Assembly (NCBI RefSeq): GCF_009498235.1
Contig: NZ_CP044205.1
Span: 3,101,389-3,165,388 of the forward strand
Direction: 5' to 3'
DNA length: 64,000 nucleotides
Source of the DNA: Candidatus Methylospira mobilis
Lineage (GTDB): Bacteria; Pseudomonadota; Gammaproteobacteria; Methylococcales; Methylococcaceae
Shown: one piece after another, positions 7,340 to 45,643 of the stretch
Position numbering within the stretch: the stretch's first letter is position 1
Layout: each line of letters starts with the position of its first letter
Notes under the pieces: generated by a model
Database searches by the model: none
What the model was told of the DNA's origin: nothing
What the model saw: the letters and a program-made list of their open reading frames with translations, nothing else
Position numbers and translations under genes: made by a program

Positions 7340-7386
7340 AGCTGTCTGAGTTGATTGGAAGTAAGTCAATCAACAGCCAGTTACTA

Positions 7387-7500
7387 TGGCGAGTCGAGTG
7401 GGTTCCCTCGCAATGATACGCTATGAACCCCGCCAGGCCCGGAAGGGAGCAACGGTAGTAGTGGACTCGTGTGCCGGGGTGTGGCTTTCCCGACTTGCCA
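7387..7500 (+). ncRNA. ffs: 4.5S RNA of the signal recognition particle
   Basis: This is the bacterial small SRP RNA, which binds Ffh and targets nascent membrane proteins to FtsY and SecYEG. The conserved apical hairpin is present: AGGCCCGGAAGGGAGCAAC with a GGAA tetraloop, followed by the second strand GTGTGCCGGGGTGTGGCT. The ends close as a 10-bp stem, TGGCGAGTCG (7387-7396) with CGACTTGCCA (7491-7500), fixing the mature length at about 114 nt. Position immediately upstream of dnaX is usual in gammaproteobacteria. An open reading frame runs through it, but its apparent ATG lies at the very 5' end of the RNA and should be ignored. Confidence 0.93.
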
Positions 7501-7544
7501 CCCTAAATATACGCCCAGAACGATTCTCCAGCATAGTGGAGCCC

Positions 7545-9191
7545 ATGGTTTATCAGGCACTTGCCCGCAAGTGGCGTCCCCGCAATTTTGACCAGATCGT
7601 AGGCCAGGAGCACGTTGTCAAAGCGCTGACCCATGCCTTGCTGACTGGACGCATGCATCACGCCTATCTTTTCACCGGCACACGCGGCGTCGGAAAAACC
7701 ACGCTTGCGCGCATTCTGGCCAAAGCAATCAACTGCGATAATCTCCACGGCTTCAATCCCTGCGGCGAATGCCTGATCTGCCGGGAAGTCGATGAAGGCC
7801 GTTTCGTCGATCTGCTGGAAGTCGACGCCGCCTCGCGGACGCGAGTTGAGGACACGCGGGACTTGCTGGATAACGTTCAGTACGCGCCCAATCAGGGGCG
7901 ATACAAAGTCTACCTGATCGATGAAGTGCATATGCTGTCCGGCCACAGCTTCAACGCGCTATTGAAAACCCTGGAAGAGCCTCCGCCCCACGTCAAGTTT
8001 TTGCTGGCTACGACCGACCCGCAAAAAATTCCGGTTACGGTGCTTTCACGCTGCCTGCAATTCAACCTCAAGCACCTGACTGCGGACCAAATCCGCCATC
8101 AAATGAGCATGATCCTGACTGCGGAGCGCATCCCTTTCGAGCAGAACGCGCTGCACGCTCTGGCGCGCACTGCCGACGGCAGCATGCGCGACGGCCTCAG
8201 CCTGCTGGATCAGGCCATTGCGCATGGCGGCGGCTGTCTCGACGAAACATCGGTCAACCTGATGCTCGGCACTGTCGCGCGCACCCATGTGTTCGACCTG
8301 CTCAACGCCCTGGCAGACGGCGATGCCGCCGGCCTGCTGGCGCGCATCGCCGGCCTAGCGATCATGACCCCCAATTATCTGGATGTCCTGCAAAACCTGC
8401 TGACCGTGCTGCACCATGCGGCGCTTGCGCAATGGGCGCCGGAATCGGTACATCACGACGACGATGCCGAACATATTCAGTTGCTGGCTAAGCGGGTCAG
8501 CGCCGAAGACCTGCAGCTCTATTACCAGATTGCATTACACGGACAGCGCGATTTGCCTCTCGCCCATAATCCTCGCGGCGGTTTCGAAATGACCATGCTG
8601 CGCATGCTGGCGTTCCGTCCGGCGCATGCGCAAAATACGGAAAACGCGCCTGGGCGGCCGGCGCCTTCAAAACCGGCAGCCTCAGCCGCTTTGGGTAAGT
8701 CCGCGGCGCTTGTGACGAATACGGTTCATGCCGTACGCGAAACGGCAGCGCCCTCATCGGAAATGGGCAAAACGGACGCGGACGCGCCTGCCCCCGCGTC
8801 TCGCCCAGTCGCGTACGACGATTGGGCGCATGCCATACAAGCAATGGAATTGAGCGGTCTGACCCAACAACTGGCGCGGAACTGCACACTTAAAAGCCTG
8901 AGCGAAAACCAGATGATACTGGCGCTCGATCCCGGCTTTGCGCATTGCCGGACCCCGTCATTGGAGGCGCAACTTGAGCGCAGGCTCGGCAGTTATTATC
9001 AACGCGCGATCAAACTGCAGATCCTTGTCGAACCGCCGCAGCACGACACGCCGGCGACGCAAATAGCCAACCATCAACAAGCACGGCAGCAGGACGCCGA
9101 ACTGGCCATTGCGGAAGACGGCAATGTCCGGCAGCTTATAGATCGCTTGAACGCCCGCATTATTCCAGGTTCAACCAAACCCATCGCATAG
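7545..9191 (+). CDS. dnaX: DNA polymerase III subunits tau/gamma
   Basis: DnaX is the AAA+ motor of the clamp loader. The start chosen is the ATG at 7545 (MVYQALARKWRPRNF), the family's normal N-terminus; the longer open frame upstream is 4.5S RNA. Visible motifs: Walker A GTRGVGKTT, a four-cysteine zinc module (CDN...CGECLICRE), Walker B YLIDEVHML, and the SRC sensor at TVLSRCLQF. Domain III follows, then a Pro/Ala-rich linker (about residues 370-425) and a tau-specific C-terminal domain. At 548 residues it is somewhat shorter than E. coli DnaX. I did not find a clear slippery A-rich site for gamma production. ybaB follows after 10 bp. Confidence 0.97.
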   Translation: MVYQALARKWRPRNFDQIVGQEHVVKALTHALLTGRMHHAYLFTGTRGVGKTTLARILAKAINCDNLHGFNPCGECLICREVDEGRFVDLLEVDAASRTRVEDTRDLLDNVQYAPNQGRYKVYLIDEVHMLSGHSFNALLKTLEEPPPHVKFLLATTDPQKIPVTVLSRCLQFNLKHLTADQIRHQMSMILTAERIPFEQNALHALARTADGSMRDGLSLLDQAIAHGGGCLDETSVNLMLGTVARTHVFDLLNALADGDAAGLLARIAGLAIMTPNYLDVLQNLLTVLHHAALAQWAPESVHHDDDAEHIQLLAKRVSAEDLQLYYQIALHGQRDLPLAHNPRGGFEMTMLRMLAFRPAHAQNTENAPGRPAPSKPAASAALGKSAALVTNTVHAVRETAAPSSEMGKTDADAPAPASRPVAYDDWAHAIQAMELSGLTQQLARNCTLKSLSENQMILALDPGFAHCRTPSLEAQLERRLGSYYQRAIKLQILVEPPQHDTPATQIANHQQARQQDAELAIAEDGNVRQLIDRLNARIIPGSTKPIA

Positions 9192-10140: not shown

Positions 10141-10346
10141 TTTTCGACAATGGGAATGGGCAGTTGGTACGGGGAAGACTTGAGTACTGAACGGCCAGAG
10201 AGCGGAAGGAATGCATCAAGATCTGTGCAGACAGCAACGACAGCTGTCCAAAAATAACAGTTAAGATAATAATATTGTGTAGTATTTTCGTGCTTTTCGT
10301 GTATTCCGTGGACAATAGCAATACCAAATTTAAGGAGCAAAACATC

Positions 10347-10691
10347 ATGTCGGATTGTATTTTTTGCAAAATAGTCGCCGCTGAAATCAAGGCTGATATT
10401 GTTTTTGAAAACGAACGGCTGCTGGCGTTCCACGATGTACGACCGCGCGCGCCGGTACATGTGCTGATAATACCGAAACGGCACATTGCGACACTGGACG
10501 ATTTGAGTGGAGATGATTGCCTGCTGGCGGGCGAACTCGTGCTTGCCGCGCAAAAGGTCGCCCGCCATACCGATATCGCCGAAAAGGGCTTTCGCACGGT
10601 GATTAATTGCCGCGCCGATGCAGGACAGGAGGTTTTTCACCTGCATCTGCATGTCATGGGCGGACGTCACCTGCATTGGCCGCCAGGCTAG
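10347..10691 (+). CDS. hinT: HIT-family (HinT-like) purine nucleoside phosphoramidase
   Basis: The start at 10347 has a strong ribosome binding site (AAGGAG at 10332-10337). The 114-residue product has the family opening MSDCIFCKIVAAEIKADIVFE and the catalytic HIT motif HLHLHVMGGR near the C-terminus, with the trailing histidine region HLHWPPG. HinT enzymes hydrolyse aminoacyl- and AMP-phosphoramidates. Length fits the family. It is a short single gene between recR and a degenerate P-type ATPase, with own spacing on both sides. Confidence 0.93.
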   Translation: MSDCIFCKIVAAEIKADIVFENERLLAFHDVRPRAPVHVLIIPKRHIATLDDLSGDDCLLAGELVLAAQKVARHTDIAEKGFRTVINCRADAGQEVFHLHLHVMGGRHLHWPPG

Positions 10692-10906: not shown

Positions 10907-13282
10907 ATGGCCGAAAAACAGGCTGATGTTCGTATCTGGCGCGACCGTGTCGCTGTAAGTCTGCCAAATGGCCCCGGGACGGACCCGGAGGATATGTTGC
11001 GCCGTTACGCGCAACGGGTCATGGCTCTACCGGAAGTTACCCAAATCCGGCTGGCGTCGGATCGGCTGGGAGCCGGTTTCGGCACACTGGAAATACGTTT
11101 CAAAACCGGACTGGACAGCCATGGCGAATTTCTGCAACGGCTCAGCCGGGCAAGCACCGGTCAGGGAGATATGCTGCCGGAAACGCAGTTGCCGTTGCGA
11201 ACCGGAAAAAATCCATTGGCGATATACCGCCACGGCTCGACGCTTTCCAGCTGGAAACTGATACGTCATTACAATGGCCGTGCCAAGTTTTTTCATCCGC
11301 AACTGGCCGGCAATTCCACGCTGGCAGTACAGATCGAAACCAGCCTGCGCTCATCGCAACCCGGCGTGGTTCATGAAGTCCACGCCAATCCGTCCACCGG
11401 CCATTTACGCATCGCCTACGATGTAAAACGCGCCGGCATCGACAGCCTGATACGGATTCTGGAATCGCCGCTATCCGACGCAAGCGTCGACTTCCCGGTG
11501 GTGATTGCCGATCCGATCCGATTCACCACGGTCAATACATCACTGGGATTGGCCACCCTCGGCGTTTTCGCATTCCCACCGGCGACCCCGCTCTGCGCGG
11601 GGCTGATCATAGCCGGTAACCTGGGGACCATGCGTAATGCCGTCGCTCAGCTCAGTCGCGGCAAACTGGGAACACCGCTCTGGATGACGGCATTACTGGC
11701 CTGTTCGGTTGCCAGCGGGCAGGTTCTGGCGTTTGCAGTCACCGACTGGTGCTGGCACTACTGGGAGCGCCGCTGGCGCAAGGATTTAAGCAGCCAGAGC
11801 CGACGCATGCTGGAAAGCGTATTGCCTATACCGCGTGAAATCAGCTTTACCACGTCTGAAGGCATAGAAGTCAGTCGCCCGGTAGCGCTGATAAACCCGG
11901 GACAAACGCTTTCCATGGAAAGCGGTGAAATATTGCCGGTGGACGGTCAGATTAAAAGCGGCGTTGCGCTGGTCAACGAGCGCGCCATTACCGGCATATC
12001 CGGACTGGTGCGCAAGGAACGCGGCGACCCTGTTTACGCCGGCAGCCATATCTACCATGGCAAGCTGGATATTTCCGTCCAGGCGCAAGGAAGCCGGACG
12101 CATGCTGCGCATGTGGCCGGCACGGTTATTGAAACTACCCGTAAGCTGCAAAGCGCTCCCGGCGTGCATCATAAAGCGGTCGAACTTTCGGACCGGGCCG
12201 TACCGCCCATCCTGGCGGCCGCGGGCCTGGGACTGGCGACGGGAAGCTTATTTGTAGTCGGCGCAATTCTGCACCAGGACTGGTACAGCGATGCGCATAC
12301 CGCAGTCCCGCTGGCCACGCTCGAAGACATCGGGCAAGCCCTGAAACAGGGATTGGTGGTGCGCGATCCTGACCTGCTCGGCTACATGGAAAAAATCGAT
12401 TTTGTCGTGTTACAGGATCAACCGGCATTGCGTGCCTGCGGTCTTAAATTATCCAGTCTGGAAACCTCGCAAACCGAACATGCCTCGCTGCTGCGCAATG
12501 TCGCCGGCGCCGCGCTGTACCTGGGCGATGCCCGCACTGCGGCCCTGCTGGCGACCTGCTTCGCGCAGCAACTAACAGTCAAACAACCGAGACTGCTGGA
12601 TCTGGATAAAGACAGCGTCACCGTAGCAGCAGATACCCAGAATATCACCTTGCGCAATCTACGGCACGCCGGCTCGAAACCGCCTTCGCTCGCCGTCGAC
12701 ATCGACGGCCAAAACATTGCCACGCTGCACTTCGACACCGAACCTCGTCCACTGGCGGCCAGCGTCGTGCAGGAACTGAGGACCTTGGGTCTGTATGTTT
12801 TTCTGGTTTCAGAAGACTCGGAAGCCCGGACAGCGCAACTCGCGCAACAATTAGGCGTTGACGGTCATAGCGGAGAGCTGAACCATCAACAAACCCTGCT
12901 TTTTTTAAGCGGTTTGCAACGTCGCGGCAAAAAACCGCTGTACATCGGACATGGCCCGCAGACAGCCGATATTCTCGAAGTCACGCACGCCAGCGTAAGC
13001 CTGGTTGAAGCGGCTCAACTGAAAGACGATGCTTCTTCCGGCAGTCTGTTGGGCAACGAGCTGGTTCCGCTAATCGAGTTGTTCAATCTGGATCGCAACA
13101 GTGGACAGCGCCTGAAAAAAACCTTCCGTTCGGGAATGCTGTTCAATCTGTTATGCGTCGCAGGAGGCTTTGGCGGCGTTTTGAACGGTCTGACCTCCGG
13201 CATCCTGGGAAATCTTTCGGTAGTGCAGGTCCGTCAGCAGGCGTTGCGAAATCTGCAGCAAAAATTTCCAAACTCACTGTAA
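10907..13282 (+). CDS. P1B-type ATPase homologue lacking the catalytic motifs (pseudoenzyme)
   Basis: The 791-residue protein has the order of a heavy-metal P-type ATPase. Two ferredoxin-like HMA-type folds without CxxC occupy about residues 5-75 and 125-200. Membrane segments follow at about 207-240 and 250-280, an actuator-like domain at about 300-390 (SGEILPVDGQIKSG, then GDPVYAGSHIYHGKL), one hydrophobic segment at about 430-450, P/N-like domains, and a C-terminal hydrophobic pair. The catalytic residues are gone: TGES is TGIS (362-365), the phosphorylated Asp of DKTG aligns with Gln503 in VLQDQP, GDGxND is GHGPQT (681-686), and no CPC metal site is seen. The reading frame is intact, so the protein is probably made but cannot pump by the P-type mechanism. 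A sensory, chaperone or scaffold role is possible. Confidence 0.8.
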   Translation: MAEKQADVRIWRDRVAVSLPNGPGTDPEDMLRRYAQRVMALPEVTQIRLASDRLGAGFGTLEIRFKTGLDSHGEFLQRLSRASTGQGDMLPETQLPLRTGKNPLAIYRHGSTLSSWKLIRHYNGRAKFFHPQLAGNSTLAVQIETSLRSSQPGVVHEVHANPSTGHLRIAYDVKRAGIDSLIRILESPLSDASVDFPVVIADPIRFTTVNTSLGLATLGVFAFPPATPLCAGLIIAGNLGTMRNAVAQLSRGKLGTPLWMTALLACSVASGQVLAFAVTDWCWHYWERRWRKDLSSQSRRMLESVLPIPREISFTTSEGIEVSRPVALINPGQTLSMESGEILPVDGQIKSGVALVNERAITGISGLVRKERGDPVYAGSHIYHGKLDISVQAQGSRTHAAHVAGTVIETTRKLQSAPGVHHKAVELSDRAVPPILAAAGLGLATGSLFVVGAILHQDWYSDAHTAVPLATLEDIGQALKQGLVVRDPDLLGYMEKIDFVVLQDQPALRACGLKLSSLETSQTEHASLLRNVAGAALYLGDARTAALLATCFAQQLTVKQPRLLDLDKDSVTVAADTQNITLRNLRHAGSKPPSLAVDIDGQNIATLHFDTEPRPLAASVVQELRTLGLYVFLVSEDSEARTAQLAQQLGVDGHSGELNHQQTLLFLSGLQRRGKKPLYIGHGPQTADILEVTHASVSLVEAAQLKDDASSGSLLGNELVPLIELFNLDRNSGQRLKKTFRSGMLFNLLCVAGGFGGVLNGLTSGILGNLSVVQVRQQALRNLQQKFPNSL

Positions 13283-13305: not shown

Positions 13306-13313
13306 GCATCGGC

Positions 13314-13493
13314 ATTTCCTGCAGCGTTCGATATGCTCTGGGTTTTTTCTTGAGCCTAATTAATTACCCCGGGAGATACCGTCCGGCGATGTGTGCAGGT
13401 CCGCCCCTGAGCGGAAAGTCTGATTCGCCTTTCGTGTCTCCCACCTGAACCATCGGTTCAAGGGCGAAGGAGCATAACGGCGCATGCGGGAAT
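13314..13493 (+). ncRNA. ssrS: 6S RNA, regulator of RNA polymerase
   Basis: 6S RNA mimics an open promoter and binds sigma-70 RNA polymerase in stationary phase. The 3' half has the recognisable block CACCTGAACCATCGGTTCAAGGG, close to the E. coli 3' half. The 5' half has the GAGCC block. The ends pair imperfectly (ATTTCCTGCAGCG against CGCATGCGGGAAT) with bulges, closing a ~180-nt rod with a large central bubble, the length expected for 6S. A gene for a different protein (EVE domain) follows, rather than the 5-formyltetrahydrofolate cyclo-ligase gene that often does. Confidence 0.85.
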
Positions 13494-13605
13494 GCCTCCC
13501 ACTCATCAAACCGGCAAACAGGTTACGATTTCAAGCCTGCTACCCCGAAAATACCGGTAGAACAAGGAATCCGGTTCCATGCCGTACTCCGATCACAAGG
13601 CCGCA

Positions 13606-14166: not shown

Positions 14167-15795
14167 TTAACTGTCAAAGTGTACGAATTCAGCGTCGTCA
14201 ATGGCATGTGATGCGGTGCCGCACCCCTTCTGGGCATTATTGACCAGACTTTTCGGCTCCATATGGCGTTTGCTGCCAATCCCGGTTTGCCGCCCTTTAT
14301 TGAGGTCCACGGTGAAGAAACCTATCAGTTCATTTAACTGTTCGGCCTGCGCGCTCATTTCTTCCGCTGTCGCCGCGAGTTCTTCGGCAGCGCTTGCGCT
14401 TAACTGCGTGTTCTGATTCAAGTGAGACACCGCATCGTTGATTTGATTTGCTCCAGCCGTTTGCTCGTCACATGCGGATGCGATTTCCTGTACCAGATCG
14501 GAAGTTTTGGCAATGCTCGGCACGATTTCGTTCAGCAAGCATCCGGCCTTTTCCGCCATCTCCACGCTACTGATAGCCAGTGCGCCGATTTCCTGCGAAG
14601 CTACCTGGCTGCGCTCCGCCAGTTTGCGTACTTCCGCGGCAACCACGGCAAAGCCTTTGCCGTGTTCACCGGCGCGCGCCGCTTCGATGGCTGCGTTAAG
14701 CGCAAGCAGGTTGGTTTGATAAGCAATTTCATCAATGATGTTAATCTTGCCGGCGATGGTTTTCATCGCTGCAACAGTTGCCGTAACGGCTCCGCCGCCT
14801 TCTTCCGCCTCCTTGGCGGCCTTGTTGGCAATGCCGTCGGTAACTTTGGCGTTTTCTGCATTCTGCATCACCGATGAGCTCATTTGCTCCATTGAACTGC
14901 TGGTTTGCTCGACGCTCGCGGCCTGCTCGCTCGCGCCTCTCGCCAGGCTTTGCGCCGTCTCGCTAACCTGTTCGGATGCCTGCGACAGCGCATCCGTCGC
15001 CTCGCCTACCTGGGAAATGGTCTGCCTCAAGTTATCCACCATGCGTTTCATCGCCGCCATGGCGCTGACCGTATCGCCTGCACGCACGTTAATATCCTGA
15101 GTCAAATCGCCGGCAGCCACTTTAGTGGCCAATTCCTGCATCAACGCCGGTTCGCCGCCCAATGCGCGCGTCAGATTGCGTACAATCAGCCAGCCCATGA
15201 CGCTAATCATTAACAGAGCCAGTGCCGCGATTATAACAAATAATTTGACGGCATAGCTTTTAGCGGCAACGGCGTCAGCGGCGCCTTTATTGCCCAATTC
15301 TACGTTGTAGTTCATGTGATCGTTTACAACCGCCCCCAACTTATCGGCAAGAGGGATGTTCTTCGCGATCAGATCGCGCGCCTTGTCGTTATGGTTCTGA
15401 CGCGACTCGGACAGGATAGGCTCTATATCCGATTCGTACTGCGTAAACAACGTCTTTTCCAGATCCAGCAATTTTTTGTCCTTGTCGTCGCTAATCAGCG
15501 GCTCGTAATTTTTCAACGCATTTTTAACGCCCTGGATATTATCTTTGAGCGCAGTTTCGATTTCCGCCATCTTGGATTCGTCGGTGTTCAGAACATGGCG
15601 GTTCAGGCCGATGCGCGTACGCAGGATATGCCTGCGCAAGTCGTCTATCACCACCAGCGAGGGCACCGTGTTGATGTTGGCGTAATTGGCGGAGGTAAAA
15701 ACCGTCTCAATCTGGTTATAGCCCACCCAAACCAATCCGGCTAGACCCAGGACGGAGGAAAAAATCAGCAGATACAAGCGTTGCGCAACAGTCAT
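14167..15795 (-). CDS. Methyl-accepting chemotaxis protein (chemoreceptor 1 of 3)
   Basis: A 542-residue receptor: TM1 at about 5-24, a periplasmic four-helix-bundle sensor (about 25-185), TM2 at about 187-207, HAMP (about 210-265), and a cytoplasmic signalling coiled coil whose hairpin tip is [20 protein letters not shown] with [21 protein letters not shown]. It signals to CheA/CheW; no che genes are in the window. The C-terminus carries [10 protein letters not shown], similar to the EFVRF/GFVRF ends of the next two receptors. The sensor domain differs from those two, so its ligand is probably different. Confidence 0.95.
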
Positions 15796-16331: not shown

Positions 16332-17984
16332 TCAAAAGCGAACAAACTCACCTTCGTCGAAAACTGCGGCAGTCCGGCATGCCTTTTTGACGGCGGGACG
16401 CGGGCCATGCGCCTTGCGCGTGCTTTTACCAGGCTGAACTGCGCTATTTCTTTGCACCATTTCCCCCCTCAACTTGAAAAAACGCATCAAATCCTGCAGC
16501 TGCTCGGCTTGACCGTTCATTTCTTCCGCAGTCGCCGCCAATTGTTCGGATGCGCTGGCGCTTTGCTGAGTAATCTGGTTAAGGTGGGTGACGGCATTGT
16601 TGATCTGGTTGATGCCGGTGGTTTGCTCCTCCGAGGCCGAAGCGATCTCCTGTACCAGCTCGGAGGTCTTGGCGATGCTCGGCACAATGTGATTGAGCAG
16701 CGTTCCGGCCTTTTCCGCCAGATCGACGCTGCTTCCCGCCAGCGTGCCGATTTCCTGCGCGGCGATCTGGCTGCGTTCGGCCAGTTTGCGCACTTCCGCC
16801 GCAACCACGGCAAACCCCTTGCCGTGCTCGCCGGCGCGCGCAGCTTCAATGGCGGCGTTAAGCGCCAGCAAATTGGTTTGATAGGCGATTTCGTCGATGA
16901 TGCCGATTTTGTGAGCAATACTTTTCATCGCATCCATCGTTTGCGTGACGGCGCAGCCGCCTTCGCTCGCTTCCTGGGCGGCTTTGGTGGCCATCGCATC
17001 GGTAACCCGCGCATTTTCCGCGTTTTGTAAAACGGACGCGCTGGTTTGCTCCACCGCCTCGCTGGTCTGCTCGACGCTGGCCGCCTGCTCGCTCGCGCTC
17101 TGCGACAAGGCCAGAGCAGTGCCGCTGATCTCTCCGGCGGCTTGCGACAATGCCAAGATTGTCTCTCCGACCTGGGCGATAGTGTGGTGCAAATTATCCA
17201 CCATGCGCTTGATCGCCGCCAGCGAACTTACGGTATCGCCGGCGCGCAGTTCGATATTAAGCGTCAGATCGCCTGCAGCCACCGCGTCCGCAACCTGTTG
17301 CACCCGTGCCGGGTCGCCGCCCAGTTGACGGAAAATCTCGCGCGCCAGCGCCCATACAACCAAAATGCTGGCCAGCACGGCGAACACGCCGAGCGCGTCC
17401 ATCCAGTTTCGCGCCGTGATGTAATTGCGTTGCGCACCGGCGGTCAGAGCGCTCATCTGCGCCGCCTGATACTGGGCCATGTCGTTCAACGCCGCAACGA
17501 AAACGTTATTGGCCGGCGCAAACGTTTTCAGCAGAAACTCCATGCCCTGTTCCCGCGCATCTTTGTCGCGCGCGATCTCAAAGGTTTTTTCGTAAAGCGG
17601 CGCTACCCCGACACTGTCATCGATCAATACCTTGTACAGCCGGCGCGCTTCTTCCGTATTCAGCAAATGCTCGAGCTCCTCCATGTCTTTTCCGTTCAGA
17701 TCACGGTTTACCTGTATTTTTCTCAACGCCGCTTCGAAATCAGCCGGATCACTGACCATGAACAGCCCTCGCAATTGCCGGCCGTTATCGAACGTGCGCA
17801 GCGCTATATTGTTCACAATCGCTATTTGCGGATAGGCTTCCAGCGTGATCGCGCGAGTGATGCTATTCATGCCGGACAAGCTATAAAGCCCTTGGCCTAT
17901 AATCAACGCTGTAAACAGCAGCACCGTTCCGAACGACAGCAACAGTTTGCTTAGTAAACTCATATGCTTCAACATCGCACTCAC
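16332..17984 (-). CDS. Methyl-accepting chemotaxis protein (chemoreceptor 2 of 3)
   Basis: A 550-residue receptor: TM1 at about 10-30, a four-helix-bundle periplasmic domain, TM2 at about 195-213, HAMP (about 215-268) and the signalling hairpin with [20 protein letters not shown]. The N-terminal half is clearly paralogous to chemoreceptor 3: both share [35 protein letters not shown] and ARNWM. The protein ends exactly in EFVRF, which fits the x-[FWYH]-x-x-[FWY] pattern of CheR/CheB tether pentapeptides. Tandem duplication of an ancestral receptor gene is the simplest origin. Confidence 0.95.
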
Positions 17985-41852: not shown

Positions 41853-42176
41853 TTAATTGCCGAATAAAAAATAGCACGCTTCACGGATCTGGATTGCGGC
41901 GAAACTGCTGGGAGTCGATGCGGCATAGTGCAGCACGCATTCCGAACGCGTGGTCGGGCCGAACCAGGTTGCCGGGTTTTCCGGCGGCGCGGTATAGCCG
42001 GGAAATTCCTTGCGGCATTGCATTACCCGCTCGACGGCGACGGTGTCGTTCAGCGCGCCGGGCAGCGTGTCGAGCACGCAGCTCTGATAGCTGTCGGGCG
42101 ACGAAAACAGCCCGGCACCGGCATTGCCCGCCCGCAACAGCAACGCGGCGATCAGGAATACTGCATGCTGACGCAT
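41853..42176 (-). CDS. Small exported protein of unknown function
   Basis: A 107-residue protein with a clean signal peptide (MRQHAVFLIAALLLRAGNAGA, cleavage after AGA). The mature part has four cysteines (in SCVLD, QCRKEF, ECVLHY and ACYFLF), probably forming two disulfides in the periplasm. I do not recognise the family. The start lies within the 3' end of dnaE (25-bp overlap), so it is probably translated from dnaE mRNA. Its other side is the IS graveyard. Confidence 0.7.
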   Translation of the reverse strand: MRQHAVFLIAALLLRAGNAGAGLFSSPDSYQSCVLDTLPGALNDTVAVERVMQCRKEFPGYTAPPENPATWFGPTTRSECVLHYAASTPSSFAAIQIREACYFLFGN

Positions 42177-45100
42177 TCGACACCCAGGCGCGCGCGCAGG
42201 CGACGCAATAATTCATCGCCCGGAGTCACCCGCCAGGTGTCGCCCAGCAGCAGTTCCGTTTCCGCGCTAATCCCGCGATAGAGGATGCTGACCGGACACG
42301 GCCCGCCGGCATAAGGCTTCAGGATCGTCATCAGCACATCGGCATAGTCCAGCGGCTCGCTTTCCGCCGCATTCAATTTCAGCGACAAAGCGCGCGCATA
42401 CTGCCCACGCGCCTGCTCGATGCTGCACAAGCGCTCGGCGGTCAGGCGCATTTGCCCGGAAAAGTCGTCGACGCCCAACCCGCCCTCGACTACCAGCAGC
42501 GTATCCTTGAGCAGCAAGTCGCGATTTTGCTCGTAAACATCCGAGAACACCGCCACTTCCAGCCGCCCGCTGCGATCGTCCAGCGTCGCGAAGCCCATGC
42601 GTTTGCCGTTCTTGTTTTGCTTGGTGCGCAAATCGACCACCAGACCGGCGACTACCGCGCGCGTTTCGCTGTTGCGGCCAAAACCGCGATTTTCTTCCAC
42701 GTACAGCTTGCCGAGTTTGGCGGTGGTCATATGCGCCAGTTCGGCCTCGTATTGCGTAATCGGATGCCCGGTCAGATAAAGGCCCAGTATCGCCTTTTCA
42801 TTGGACAGACGCTGCTCTTCGCTCCACGGTTCGATCTGGATTTGCGGCAAGTTAACCGGACATTCCGGCTCGTCCAGCATCAGGCCGAACAAATCGTGCT
42901 GCCCGGTTTCGGCCATTTTGCCATGCTGCTCGGCCGCCTTCAGCGCATCCGGCAATTCGGCGATATGACGGGCGCGGTTGCCATCGAAGCTGTCCATCGC
43001 TCCGGCATGAATCAGCGCCTCCAGCACGCGCCGGTTGACCTTGCGCAAGTCGATACGGCGGCAGAAATCGAACAGGTTGGCGTAAGGCCCCTGCGCGTCG
43101 CGCTGACGGATGATGTCTTCGATGGCATTTTCGCCGACGCCCTTCAGTGCGCCCAGGCCGTAGACGATGCTGTTGCTGTCGCGCGCGACAAAACGATAGT
43201 TCGAGCTGTTGATATCGGGCGGCACGATCTCCAGCTTCATCTCGCGGCATTCCTCAATCAGCACCACCACTTTATCGGTGTTGTCCATATCGGCGGACAA
43301 TACCGCCGCCATGAATTCGGACGGATAATGCGCCTTCAGCCAGGCGGTCTGATAGGCCACCAGCGCATAGGCCGCCGAATGCGATTTGTTGAAACCGTAC
43401 TCGGCGAACTTTTCCATCAGGTCGAAGATATAGCTGGCCGTCGTTTCCTCGACCTGTCGCCCTATCGAACCGCTGACGAAAATTGCGCGCTGCTGGGCCA
43501 TTTCCTCGGCCTTTTTCTTGCCCATCGCGCGGCGCAGCAGATCGGCGCCGCCCAGCGTGTAACCGGCCAGTTCCTGGGCGATCTGCATCACCTGTTCCTG
43601 GTAGACGATCACGCCGTAGGTCGGTTTGAGGATGTTTTCCAGGCTGGCATGCGGGTATTCGACCTTGGCGCGCCCCTGTTTACGGTTGATGAAGTCGTCG
43701 ACCATGCCCGACTGCAACGGCCCCGGACGGAACAAGGCCACCAGCGCGATGATGTCTTCGAAGCAGTCCGGCTGCAAACGCCGGATCAAGTCCTTCATGC
43801 CGCGCGATTCGAGCTGGAATACGGCAGTGGTGGCGCAACGCTTGAGCAGGGAGTAGGACTCGGGGTCGTCGCGCGGGATCAGGTTGATATCGACCGGCGT
43901 TTCACCTGCATTGGCGCGGCGGCGGTTAATGGCTTCGACCGCCCAGTCGATGATGGTCAGCGTGCGCAAGCCGAGGAAGTCGAACTTGACCAGCCCCACC
44001 GCTTCGACATCGTCCTTGTCGAACTGCGTAACCAGATTGTCGCCGCCCTGTTCGCAATACAGCGGCGAAAAGTCGATCAGCTGCGACGGCGCAATCACCA
44101 CGCCGCCCGCGTGCTTGCCGGCATTACGGGTGATGCCTTCCAGGCTTTTCGCCAGATCGATCAATGCGCGAACTTCATCATCCTGCTCATAGACCCTGGC
44201 CAGGTCTTCGCTGTCGTTCAGTGCCTTGTCCAGCGTCATGTTCAGTTCGAACGGGATCAGCTTGGCGATGCGGTCGACAAAACCGTAAGGGTGTCCGAGC
44301 ACGCGCCCGACGTCGCGCACCACCGCCTTGGCGGCCATGCTGCCGTAGGTGATGATCTGCGAAACGCGATCGCGTCCGTAATGGCGCGAGACGTAATCGA
44401 TCACTTCGTCGCGGCGCTCCATGCAGAAGTCGATATCGAAGTCGGGCATGGAAACGCGTTCGGGGTTCAAAAAGCGTTCGAACAGCAGATCGAATTCGAG
44501 CGGATCGAGATCGGTGATTTTCAGCGCGTAGGCCACCAGCGACCCGGCCCCCGAACCACGTCCCGGTCCGACCGGGATGCCGTTGTTTTTCGCCCACTGG
44601 ATAAAGTCGGCCACGATCAGAAAATAGCCGGGAAAGCCCATCTGCTTGATAACGCCCAGCTCGATTTCCAGCCGGTCGTAATAGCGCTGATATTTTTCCG
44701 GGTGGGCGGCGCTGTCCGGAAACAGGATGCGCATGCGCTGCTCCAGACCCTTGCGCGACTCATCACTGAAGAAATCCTCCAGCGTCATTTCGGGTGGAAC
44801 CGGGAAATCGGGCAGATAGCTTTTGCCCAGCGTCAGGCTCAGATTACAGCGCTTGGCGATTTCGACGGTGTTCTGCAAGGCTTCCGGAATATCGGCAAAC
44901 AGCTCGCACATTTCGTCGGCGCTGCGCAGATATTGCTGCTCGCTGTAATCGCGCGGACGCCGCGCGTCGTCCAGCACCCGGCCCTGATGAATGCAGACGC
45001 GCGCTTCATGGGCGTCGAATTCTTCGGCTTTCAGGAAGCGCACGTCGTTGGTCGCAACCGGCGGCACATCGAACTCGACGGCCAGATCGAGCGCGGCATC

Positions 45101-45643
45101 CAGGTAGATTTCTTCGCCGGGACGCCCGGTGCGCTGCAATTCCAGGTAAAAGCGGTTTTCGAACAGCGGCAGCCAGTGTTCGAGTTCGCGGCGCGCTTCA
45201 TCGGCGTTATCCGCGAGCAAGGCCTGGCCGATACGCCCCTCGCGCGCGCCGGAAAGCGCGATCAAGCCCTGATTGCAGTCGTTCAGCCACTCGGTCATCA
45301 GCATCGGAACGCCCTGATGCTGATTTTCCTGATAACTGCGCGACACCAGCGCGGTGAGATTGCGATATCCCTGTTCGTTTTGCACCAGCAGCGTCAGCCG
45401 ATGCGGGCGCGCCGGTTCCTGCGGGTTGAAGAACCAGACATCGGAGCCTGCTATCGGTTTGATGCCCGCGCCCATCGCTGCTTTATAAAATTTGACCAGC
45501 GAGAACATATTGGACTGGTCTGTCACCGCCACTGCGGGCATGCCTAACGCGGCCACCTGTTTTATCAGAGGCTTGATGCGGACGATGCCGTCTACCAGAG
45601 AGTATTCGGTGTGGAGACGGAGGTGGATGAACTTATGAGGCAT
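42152..45643 (-). CDS. dnaE: DNA polymerase III subunit alpha
   Basis: The replicative polymerase, 1163 residues, near the E. coli length. The N-terminal PHP domain starts FIHLRLHTEYSLVDG. Catalytic aspartates lie in MPDFDIDFCMERRDEVI, with GRGSGAGSLVAYALKITDLDP and YGFNKSHSAAYALVAYQTAWLKAHYP. The helix-hairpin-helix, OB-fold (VAGLVVDLRTKQNKNGKRMGF) and C-terminal parts follow. The region directly upstream of the start (from 45651) is a hairpin-rich repeat, so the dnaE leader mRNA would be made of it. Confidence 0.97.
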   Translation of the reverse strand: MPHKFIHLRLHTEYSLVDGIVRIKPLIKQVAALGMPAVAVTDQSNMFSLVKFYKAAMGAGIKPIAGSDVWFFNPQEPARPHRLTLLVQNEQGYRNLTALVSRSYQENQHQGVPMLMTEWLNDCNQGLIALSGAREGRIGQALLADNADEARRELEHWLPLFENRFYLELQRTGRPGEEIYLDAALDLAVEFDVPPVATNDVRFLKAEEFDAHEARVCIHQGRVLDDARRPRDYSEQQYLRSADEMCELFADIPEALQNTVEIAKRCNLSLTLGKSYLPDFPVPPEMTLEDFFSDESRKGLEQRMRILFPDSAAHPEKYQRYYDRLEIELGVIKQMGFPGYFLIVADFIQWAKNNGIPVGPGRGSGAGSLVAYALKITDLDPLEFDLLFERFLNPERVSMPDFDIDFCMERRDEVIDYVSRHYGRDRVSQIITYGSMAAKAVVRDVGRVLGHPYGFVDRIAKLIPFELNMTLDKALNDSEDLARVYEQDDEVRALIDLAKSLEGITRNAGKHAGGVVIAPSQLIDFSPLYCEQGGDNLVTQFDKDDVEAVGLVKFDFLGLRTLTIIDWAVEAINRRRANAGETPVDINLIPRDDPESYSLLKRCATTAVFQLESRGMKDLIRRLQPDCFEDIIALVALFRPGPLQSGMVDDFINRKQGRAKVEYPHASLENILKPTYGVIVYQEQVMQIAQELAGYTLGGADLLRRAMGKKKAEEMAQQRAIFVSGSIGRQVEETTASYIFDLMEKFAEYGFNKSHSAAYALVAYQTAWLKAHYPSEFMAAVLSADMDNTDKVVVLIEECREMKLEIVPPDINSSNYRFVARDSNSIVYGLGALKGVGENAIEDIIRQRDAQGPYANLFDFCRRIDLRKVNRRVLEALIHAGAMDSFDGNRARHIAELPDALKAAEQHGKMAETGQHDLFGLMLDEPECPVNLPQIQIEPWSEEQRLSNEKAILGLYLTGHPITQYEAELAHMTTAKLGKLYVEENRGFGRNSETRAVVAGLVVDLRTKQNKNGKRMGFATLDDRSGRLEVAVFSDVYEQNRDLLLKDTLLVVEGGLGVDDFSGQMRLTAERLCSIEQARGQYARALSLKLNAAESEPLDYADVLMTILKPYAGGPCPVSILYRGISAETELLLGDTWRVTPGDELLRRLRARLGVECVSMQYS

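Follow-up and report, generated by a model that had tools for sequence, protein, structure and literature searches.

The 64-kb stretch of DNA analysed here (the window) encodes a 791-residue protein that is a P1B-type ATPase by descent and not one by the chemistry that defines the class. The gene belongs to a family whose members, at most loci and in most genomes, are encoded in the same operon as an intact P-type ATPase from a sister family, a linkage that is new here. A phosphorylated aspartate defines P-type ATPases. With DKTGT, TGE, HP and GDGxND all missing, the window protein should be unable to go through a normal P-type cycle and is probably catalytically dead, with neither productive ATP binding nor a phospho-Asp intermediate. 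On sequence comparisons, the favoured reading, given a probability of about 0.6, is that it would be an ancient, catalytically dead P1B paralogue serving as an accessory or regulatory subunit of a cognate pump, probably one for a non-copper cation.

The gene, its predicted fold and its lost motifs

The gene is a single uninterrupted frame with an ATG start (Table 1), flanked by a HIT-domain gene (10275-10691) and the 6S RNA (13313-13496), and its GC3 of 0.63 lies among those of its neighbours (0.57-0.68), in keeping with the normal codon use recorded in the first-pass annotation. The product matches Pfam E1-E2_ATPase (E=5e-17) and NCBIfam TIGR01525 for heavy-metal P-type ATPases (1.3e-37, 130 bits vs a cut-off of 346), and profile-profile alignment sets 756 columns against intact P-type ATPases at a probability of 100. 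An AlphaFold2 model built with 25 homologues as input (mean pLDDT 86.8, pTM 0.74) has the complete P1B-type fold, with A, P and N domains and M1-M6, which puts the protein in the P1B branch of the P-type superfamily by descent. The best solved match of the model is CopA (7r0g, Z 26.8 over 563 residues), followed by ATP7B, HMA4 and then Cd, Cu and Zn pumps. The open frame, the aligned columns and the predicted fold thus uphold the earlier view of an intact, full-length P1B homologue, and structure prediction, whose failure had been named as a sign of a wrong assignment, returned the full fold.

Table 1. Positions in the window of the degenerate ATPase gene and of its domains and former motifs
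Feature	Position	Strand	Basis and remarks
Pseudo-P1B-type ATPase gene, 791 aa	10907..13282	+	ORF, Pfam/NCBIfam, profile alignment, model, fold search
N-terminal region, aa 7-190, two ferredoxin-like (HMA-like) units	10925..11476	+	Model secondary structure, weak HMA_2 match, Cys list
Helices MA, MB, M1, M2, aa 205-305	11519..11821	+	Alignment, model; Cys266 of 'LLACS' kept in Methylococcaceae
Actuator (A) domain, aa 306-415	11822..12151	+	Pfam PF00122; solved A-domain 2hc8, Z 17
Former TGES motif, now TGIS, aa 362-365	11990..12001	+	Alignment; Glu missing in 25/25 homologues
M3-M4, aa 418-482, best conserved stretch of the family	12158..12352	+	Alignment, conservation by domain
L-H-Q-D-W family motif in M4, aa 455-459, Asp458 invariant	12269..12283	+	Alignments of both families
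Former DKTGT region, now VLQDQP, aa 501-506	12407..12424	+	Alignment
Former N-domain HP site, now LGDAR, aa 539-543	12521..12535	+	Alignment; LGDxR near-invariant in Methylococcaceae members
Former GDGxND motif, now GHGPQT, aa 681-686	12947..12964	+	Alignment
M5-M6, aa 720-786, N747-L-L-C750, N747/C750 invariant	13064..13264	+	Alignments; same as N790/C793 of the intact partner

Profile-profile alignment gives T362-G-I-S365 in the TGES column, V501-L-Q503-D-Q-P506 in the DKTGT column, with Gln503 in place of the phospho-Asp, and G681-H-G-P-Q-T686 in the GDGIND column, the same residues that the first-pass annotation had named. A further loss, missing from that list, is the N-domain Glu/HP site, which reads LGDAR (539-543). 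The protein therefore has none of the DKTGT, TGE(S/A) and GDGxND motifs of functional P-type ATPases, nor the HP of the P1B group. The first 200 residues contain no Cys, and so no CxxC, as expected from the earlier description of HMA-like folds without it; two ferredoxin-like units are modelled there. A CPC/SPC-type metal site is likewise absent from M4, which reads ILHQDWYSDAHTAVP. The earlier claim on this point stands as to the absence and fails as to a loss specific to the gene, because CPC is missing from the intact sister family too, making this a trait of the wider group.

Elsewhere in the window, the longest dnaX frame (7386-9191) has the SRP RNA (7397-7493) across its 5' end, so that the true dnaX start must be further downstream. 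Two very long frames lie on opposite strands (42152-45643, minus, and 42452-45547, plus; 1163 and 1031 aa), and two adjacent, similar minus-strand frames (14167-15795 and 16332-17984) look, from their translations, like methyl-accepting chemotaxis proteins.

A conserved family of degenerate ATPases

Homologues were sought in genome contigs, where a single-sequence query returned none and an alignment query succeeded; the resulting alignment comprises 25 homologues from Methylococcaceae and three Planctomycetota. Within the Methylococcaceae, the family of the window organism, the protein occurs in 21 of 38 genomes, the searched set including Methylococcus capsulatus Texas, Methylotetracoccus and Methylolobus. 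Evenly drawn samples of the class (369 genomes) and the phylum (398) contained none outside that family. The relatives on three Planctomycetota contigs are 25-28% identical, and a search of 294 Planctomycetota genomes yielded the starting one only.

Intact TGES, DKTGT and GDGxND motifs occur in none of the 25 homologues. The TGES Glu is gone from every one, as are the Lys and Thr of DKTGT, while most still have Asp at the phospho column (V-[LI]-D), so that loss of the phospho-Asp residue itself is not family-wide; Gln or Glu at that column is confined to the window protein and two sisters. Intact DKTG or GDGxND in relatives had been put forward as the mark of a gene in decay, and none has them. 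The family has invariants of its own, namely Asp458 in M4 (within L-H-Q-D-W in most Methylococcaceae) and the Asn and Cys of N747-L-x-C750 (M5/M6); the Methylococcaceae members also conserve LGDxR where the nucleotide pocket used to be.

A quick maximum-likelihood tree separates all 25 degenerate proteins, with their common motif losses, from all 15 intact partners; each set is a clade of its own (SH-aLRT 100 and 99, respectively) that holds both planctomycete and Methylococcaceae members. A single ancient origin of the degenerate family is the simplest reading of these sequences. As to individual members, one contig (G007 contig 480, L042:1658-5246) carries tandem degenerate ATPase genes, the second truncated by the contig end. 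A second, more divergent subgroup lies off the operon (L049:8261-10654, L025:946-3285) in genomes that also carry an operon copy, and the window genome's other copy (L037) groups with it.

Linkage to an intact pump

The usual order of the operon is a small membrane (TM) protein of ~120-140 aa, the intact pump (~860-900 aa), a protein of ~180-210 aa and the degenerate ATPase, with genes for DUF454-like and EcsC proteins and often for Na/Ca exchangers (PF01699) coming after it. At one planctomycete locus (L065) the order is exchanger, small protein, pump, ~180-aa protein and degenerate pump, and at another (L064) the ORFs of the pump and its degenerate relative overlap. Among the 38 Methylococcaceae genomes, 17 have both genes, four the degenerate one only (all four being fragmented assemblies of 340 or more contigs), one the intact one only and 16 neither (Fisher p 3e-6, with genomes treated as independent of kinship). 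The search for conserved neighbours that the first-pass annotation had proposed thus led to an intact P-type ATPase in most genomes, and both the operon and the co-occurrence favour its suggestion that the protein partners a real pump. The linkage to a cognate live pump holds at most loci and not in the window genome.

The intact family (A3, a 'heavy metal translocating P-type ATPase') passes the TIGR01525 cut-off, is ~25% identical to the degenerate one and has invariant TGES, DKTGT, HP and GDGIND. Its M4 motif, in place of CPC, is N-S-D-x-G-T-G-I-R-M-A-A-P, and its invariant Asp479 aligns with Asp458 of the degenerate protein, whose N747 and C750 it also has, as N790 and C793. A Methylobacterium plasmid carries the intact pump type with no adjacent degenerate gene, and a search of plasmids found intact pumps only and no member of the degenerate family. 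The live pump therefore does not always need the degenerate gene, and the degenerate subunit is probably an addition, not a universal need of the pump. Separately, P-type ATPases from another class of the phylum (L074-L080) have LNxxxxxxxR in M4 in place of CPC.

The protein encoded between the live and degenerate ATPases (for example, L041:10979-11503, minus; L038:7572-8201, minus; L065:9070-9603, plus) has the motif F-x-I-D-[ST]-G-W in most members. It has no Pfam or NCBIfam match, and the Foldseek rows for a ~180-aa model (pLDDT 73.5) are thioredoxin-like and non-significant.

Selection and the site of constraint

By the Nei-Gojobori method, dN/dS is 0.09-0.44 for the degenerate gene in seven close pairs among the other members of the family, a sign of purifying selection there; for the intact partner, in six genome pairs that match these, it is 0.03-0.16. 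With the family-wide motif losses and the single clade, these values bear out the earlier suggestion of a conserved pseudoenzyme. Across seven loci that carry both genes, the degenerate family is 56-64% conserved in its membrane helices and 40-45% in its A/P-b domains, whereas the intact partner is 88-93% conserved in its A/P domains and 79% in its membrane parts; the focus of constraint in the degenerate family has moved away from ATP chemistry and onto the membrane domain. A correlation of pairwise identities between the two families (r 0.93) was set aside as evidence, because common species history alone could produce it.

Copies and probable relocation in the window genome

Besides the window copy, its genome holds another full-length degenerate protein (31% identity) and a single intact relative. 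Its pump operon (L038) is complete but for the degenerate gene, both degenerate copies being elsewhere, and the window copy lies ~0.3 Mb from it on the chromosome; off-operon copies are also found in three other genomes (G009, G024 and G044). The nearest relatives of the window copy are operon copies (G006 and G016), and it has for that reason likely moved out of the pump operon. Recent duplication within the genome was rejected as the origin of the degenerate copy, because the two copies sit at different places in an old clade. In eight relatives there is no HIT gene within 1.5 kb of the 6S gene, and EVE adjoins 6S in two, so that the location in the window is lineage-specific and says little on function. 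The branch of the window copy is long in a quick tree (1.28 vs 0.5 for its sisters), which may mean that the copy has drifted or acquired another function.

Proposed function and its alternatives

In two phyla the degenerate protein is linked to a single family of live pumps, and its membrane half is constrained; both facts suggest that it is part of that pump or regulates it. It would then be a membrane accessory or regulatory subunit in a heteromer with the cognate intact pump, one subunit being responsible for ATP chemistry and the other providing a second membrane ion site or gate. The window copy, as its gene has left the pump operon, would act in trans. For the live pump copper is unlikely, given the missing CPC and the M4 motif that replaces it; the substrate is perhaps a divalent cation, as the Na/Ca-exchanger neighbours weakly suggest. 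A stricter version, in which a live and a dead P1B-type subunit join in an obligate or regulatory heteromer and so form a P-type pump of two ATPases, is offered more tentatively, at somewhat short of even odds. The distance of the window gene from the operon, the lone Methylobacterium pump, the Asp that most homologues retain at the phospho column and the long branch of the window copy count against the subunit reading.

The strongest competitor, though itself unlikely, makes the protein a stand-alone membrane ion sensor or receptor, in which a cation-binding membrane domain would signal through the degenerate A, N and P domains to EcsC and the ~180-aa protein. The membrane helices are indeed the best conserved part of the family, a new conserved LGDxR sits at the former nucleotide pocket and four genomes have off-operon copies, but near-constant pairing with one intact pump family in two phyla is explained more simply by pump partnership. 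It is improbable that the window copy is heading for loss, under constraint relaxed since it left the operon, in a family otherwise functional. The long terminal branch, the second divergent copy and the Gln where most homologues have Asp all fit such a course; yet the frame is fully open, and of the 27 columns that every other homologue has unchanged the copy keeps 25, and of the 67 near-invariant ones 59, better than the other copy in the same genome. Slightly less probable again is that the P-type membrane domain has become a passive channel or carrier, which would work without coupling to ATP and complement the operon pump or the exchangers. The conserved M4 Asp and M6 Asn/Cys common to the intact pump and the adjoining Na_Ca_ex genes are consistent with it, but the conducting pathway is hypothetical, and the cytosolic domains gate P-type membrane domains. 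An ordinary pseudogene or an alignment artefact can be dismissed, decay being ruled out by the motif loss common to 25 homologues, the purifying selection, the kept invariant columns and the clade, and a chance or misaligned frame by the profile alignment and the confident fold match.

Comparison with known systems

The window protein has the N-terminal ferredoxin-like domains, helices MA-M6 and A, P and N domains of the P1B heavy-metal ATPases (CopA, ZntA, HMA4), and its model matches the zinc pump (4umv/4umw) at Z 17.6-18.3; unlike them, it is without all catalytic, CPC and CxxC motifs. With the intact operon pump it has in common the domain order, the M4 Asp and the N-x-x-C of M6. Together, the two P-type proteins, EcsC, the DUF454-like protein and the Na/Ca exchanger indicate an undescribed cation-handling operon of methanotrophs, and the two-ATPase pump, if true, would be a transporter architecture conserved in methanotrophs and planctomycetes.

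A UniProt survey counted 22 of 9,634 P-type sequences without an intact DKTGT, 99.77% keeping it (PMC3896382); the 22 carry single point changes and are suspected errors or odd cases, and neither a conserved dead family, as here, nor an operon features in that survey. The open-licence literature yielded neither a conserved bacterial pseudo-P-type-ATPase family nor a report of a live and dead heteromer among P-type ATPases. KdpFABC resembles the proposed arrangement in that a P-type ATPase works with a membrane partner subunit, although KdpA is channel-like and not a dead P-type ATPase (PMC9651954). The nearest functional analogy is with heterodimeric ABC exporters, which pair one live with one degenerate nucleotide site (reviewed in PMC7756269); their fold is unrelated, and the heteromer here is a proposed one. 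An old, selected, operon-linked dead family would give the P-type ATPases an equivalent of pseudokinases and of these degenerate-site exporters, and it would make testable whether P-type pumps, too, can act as asymmetric heteromers.
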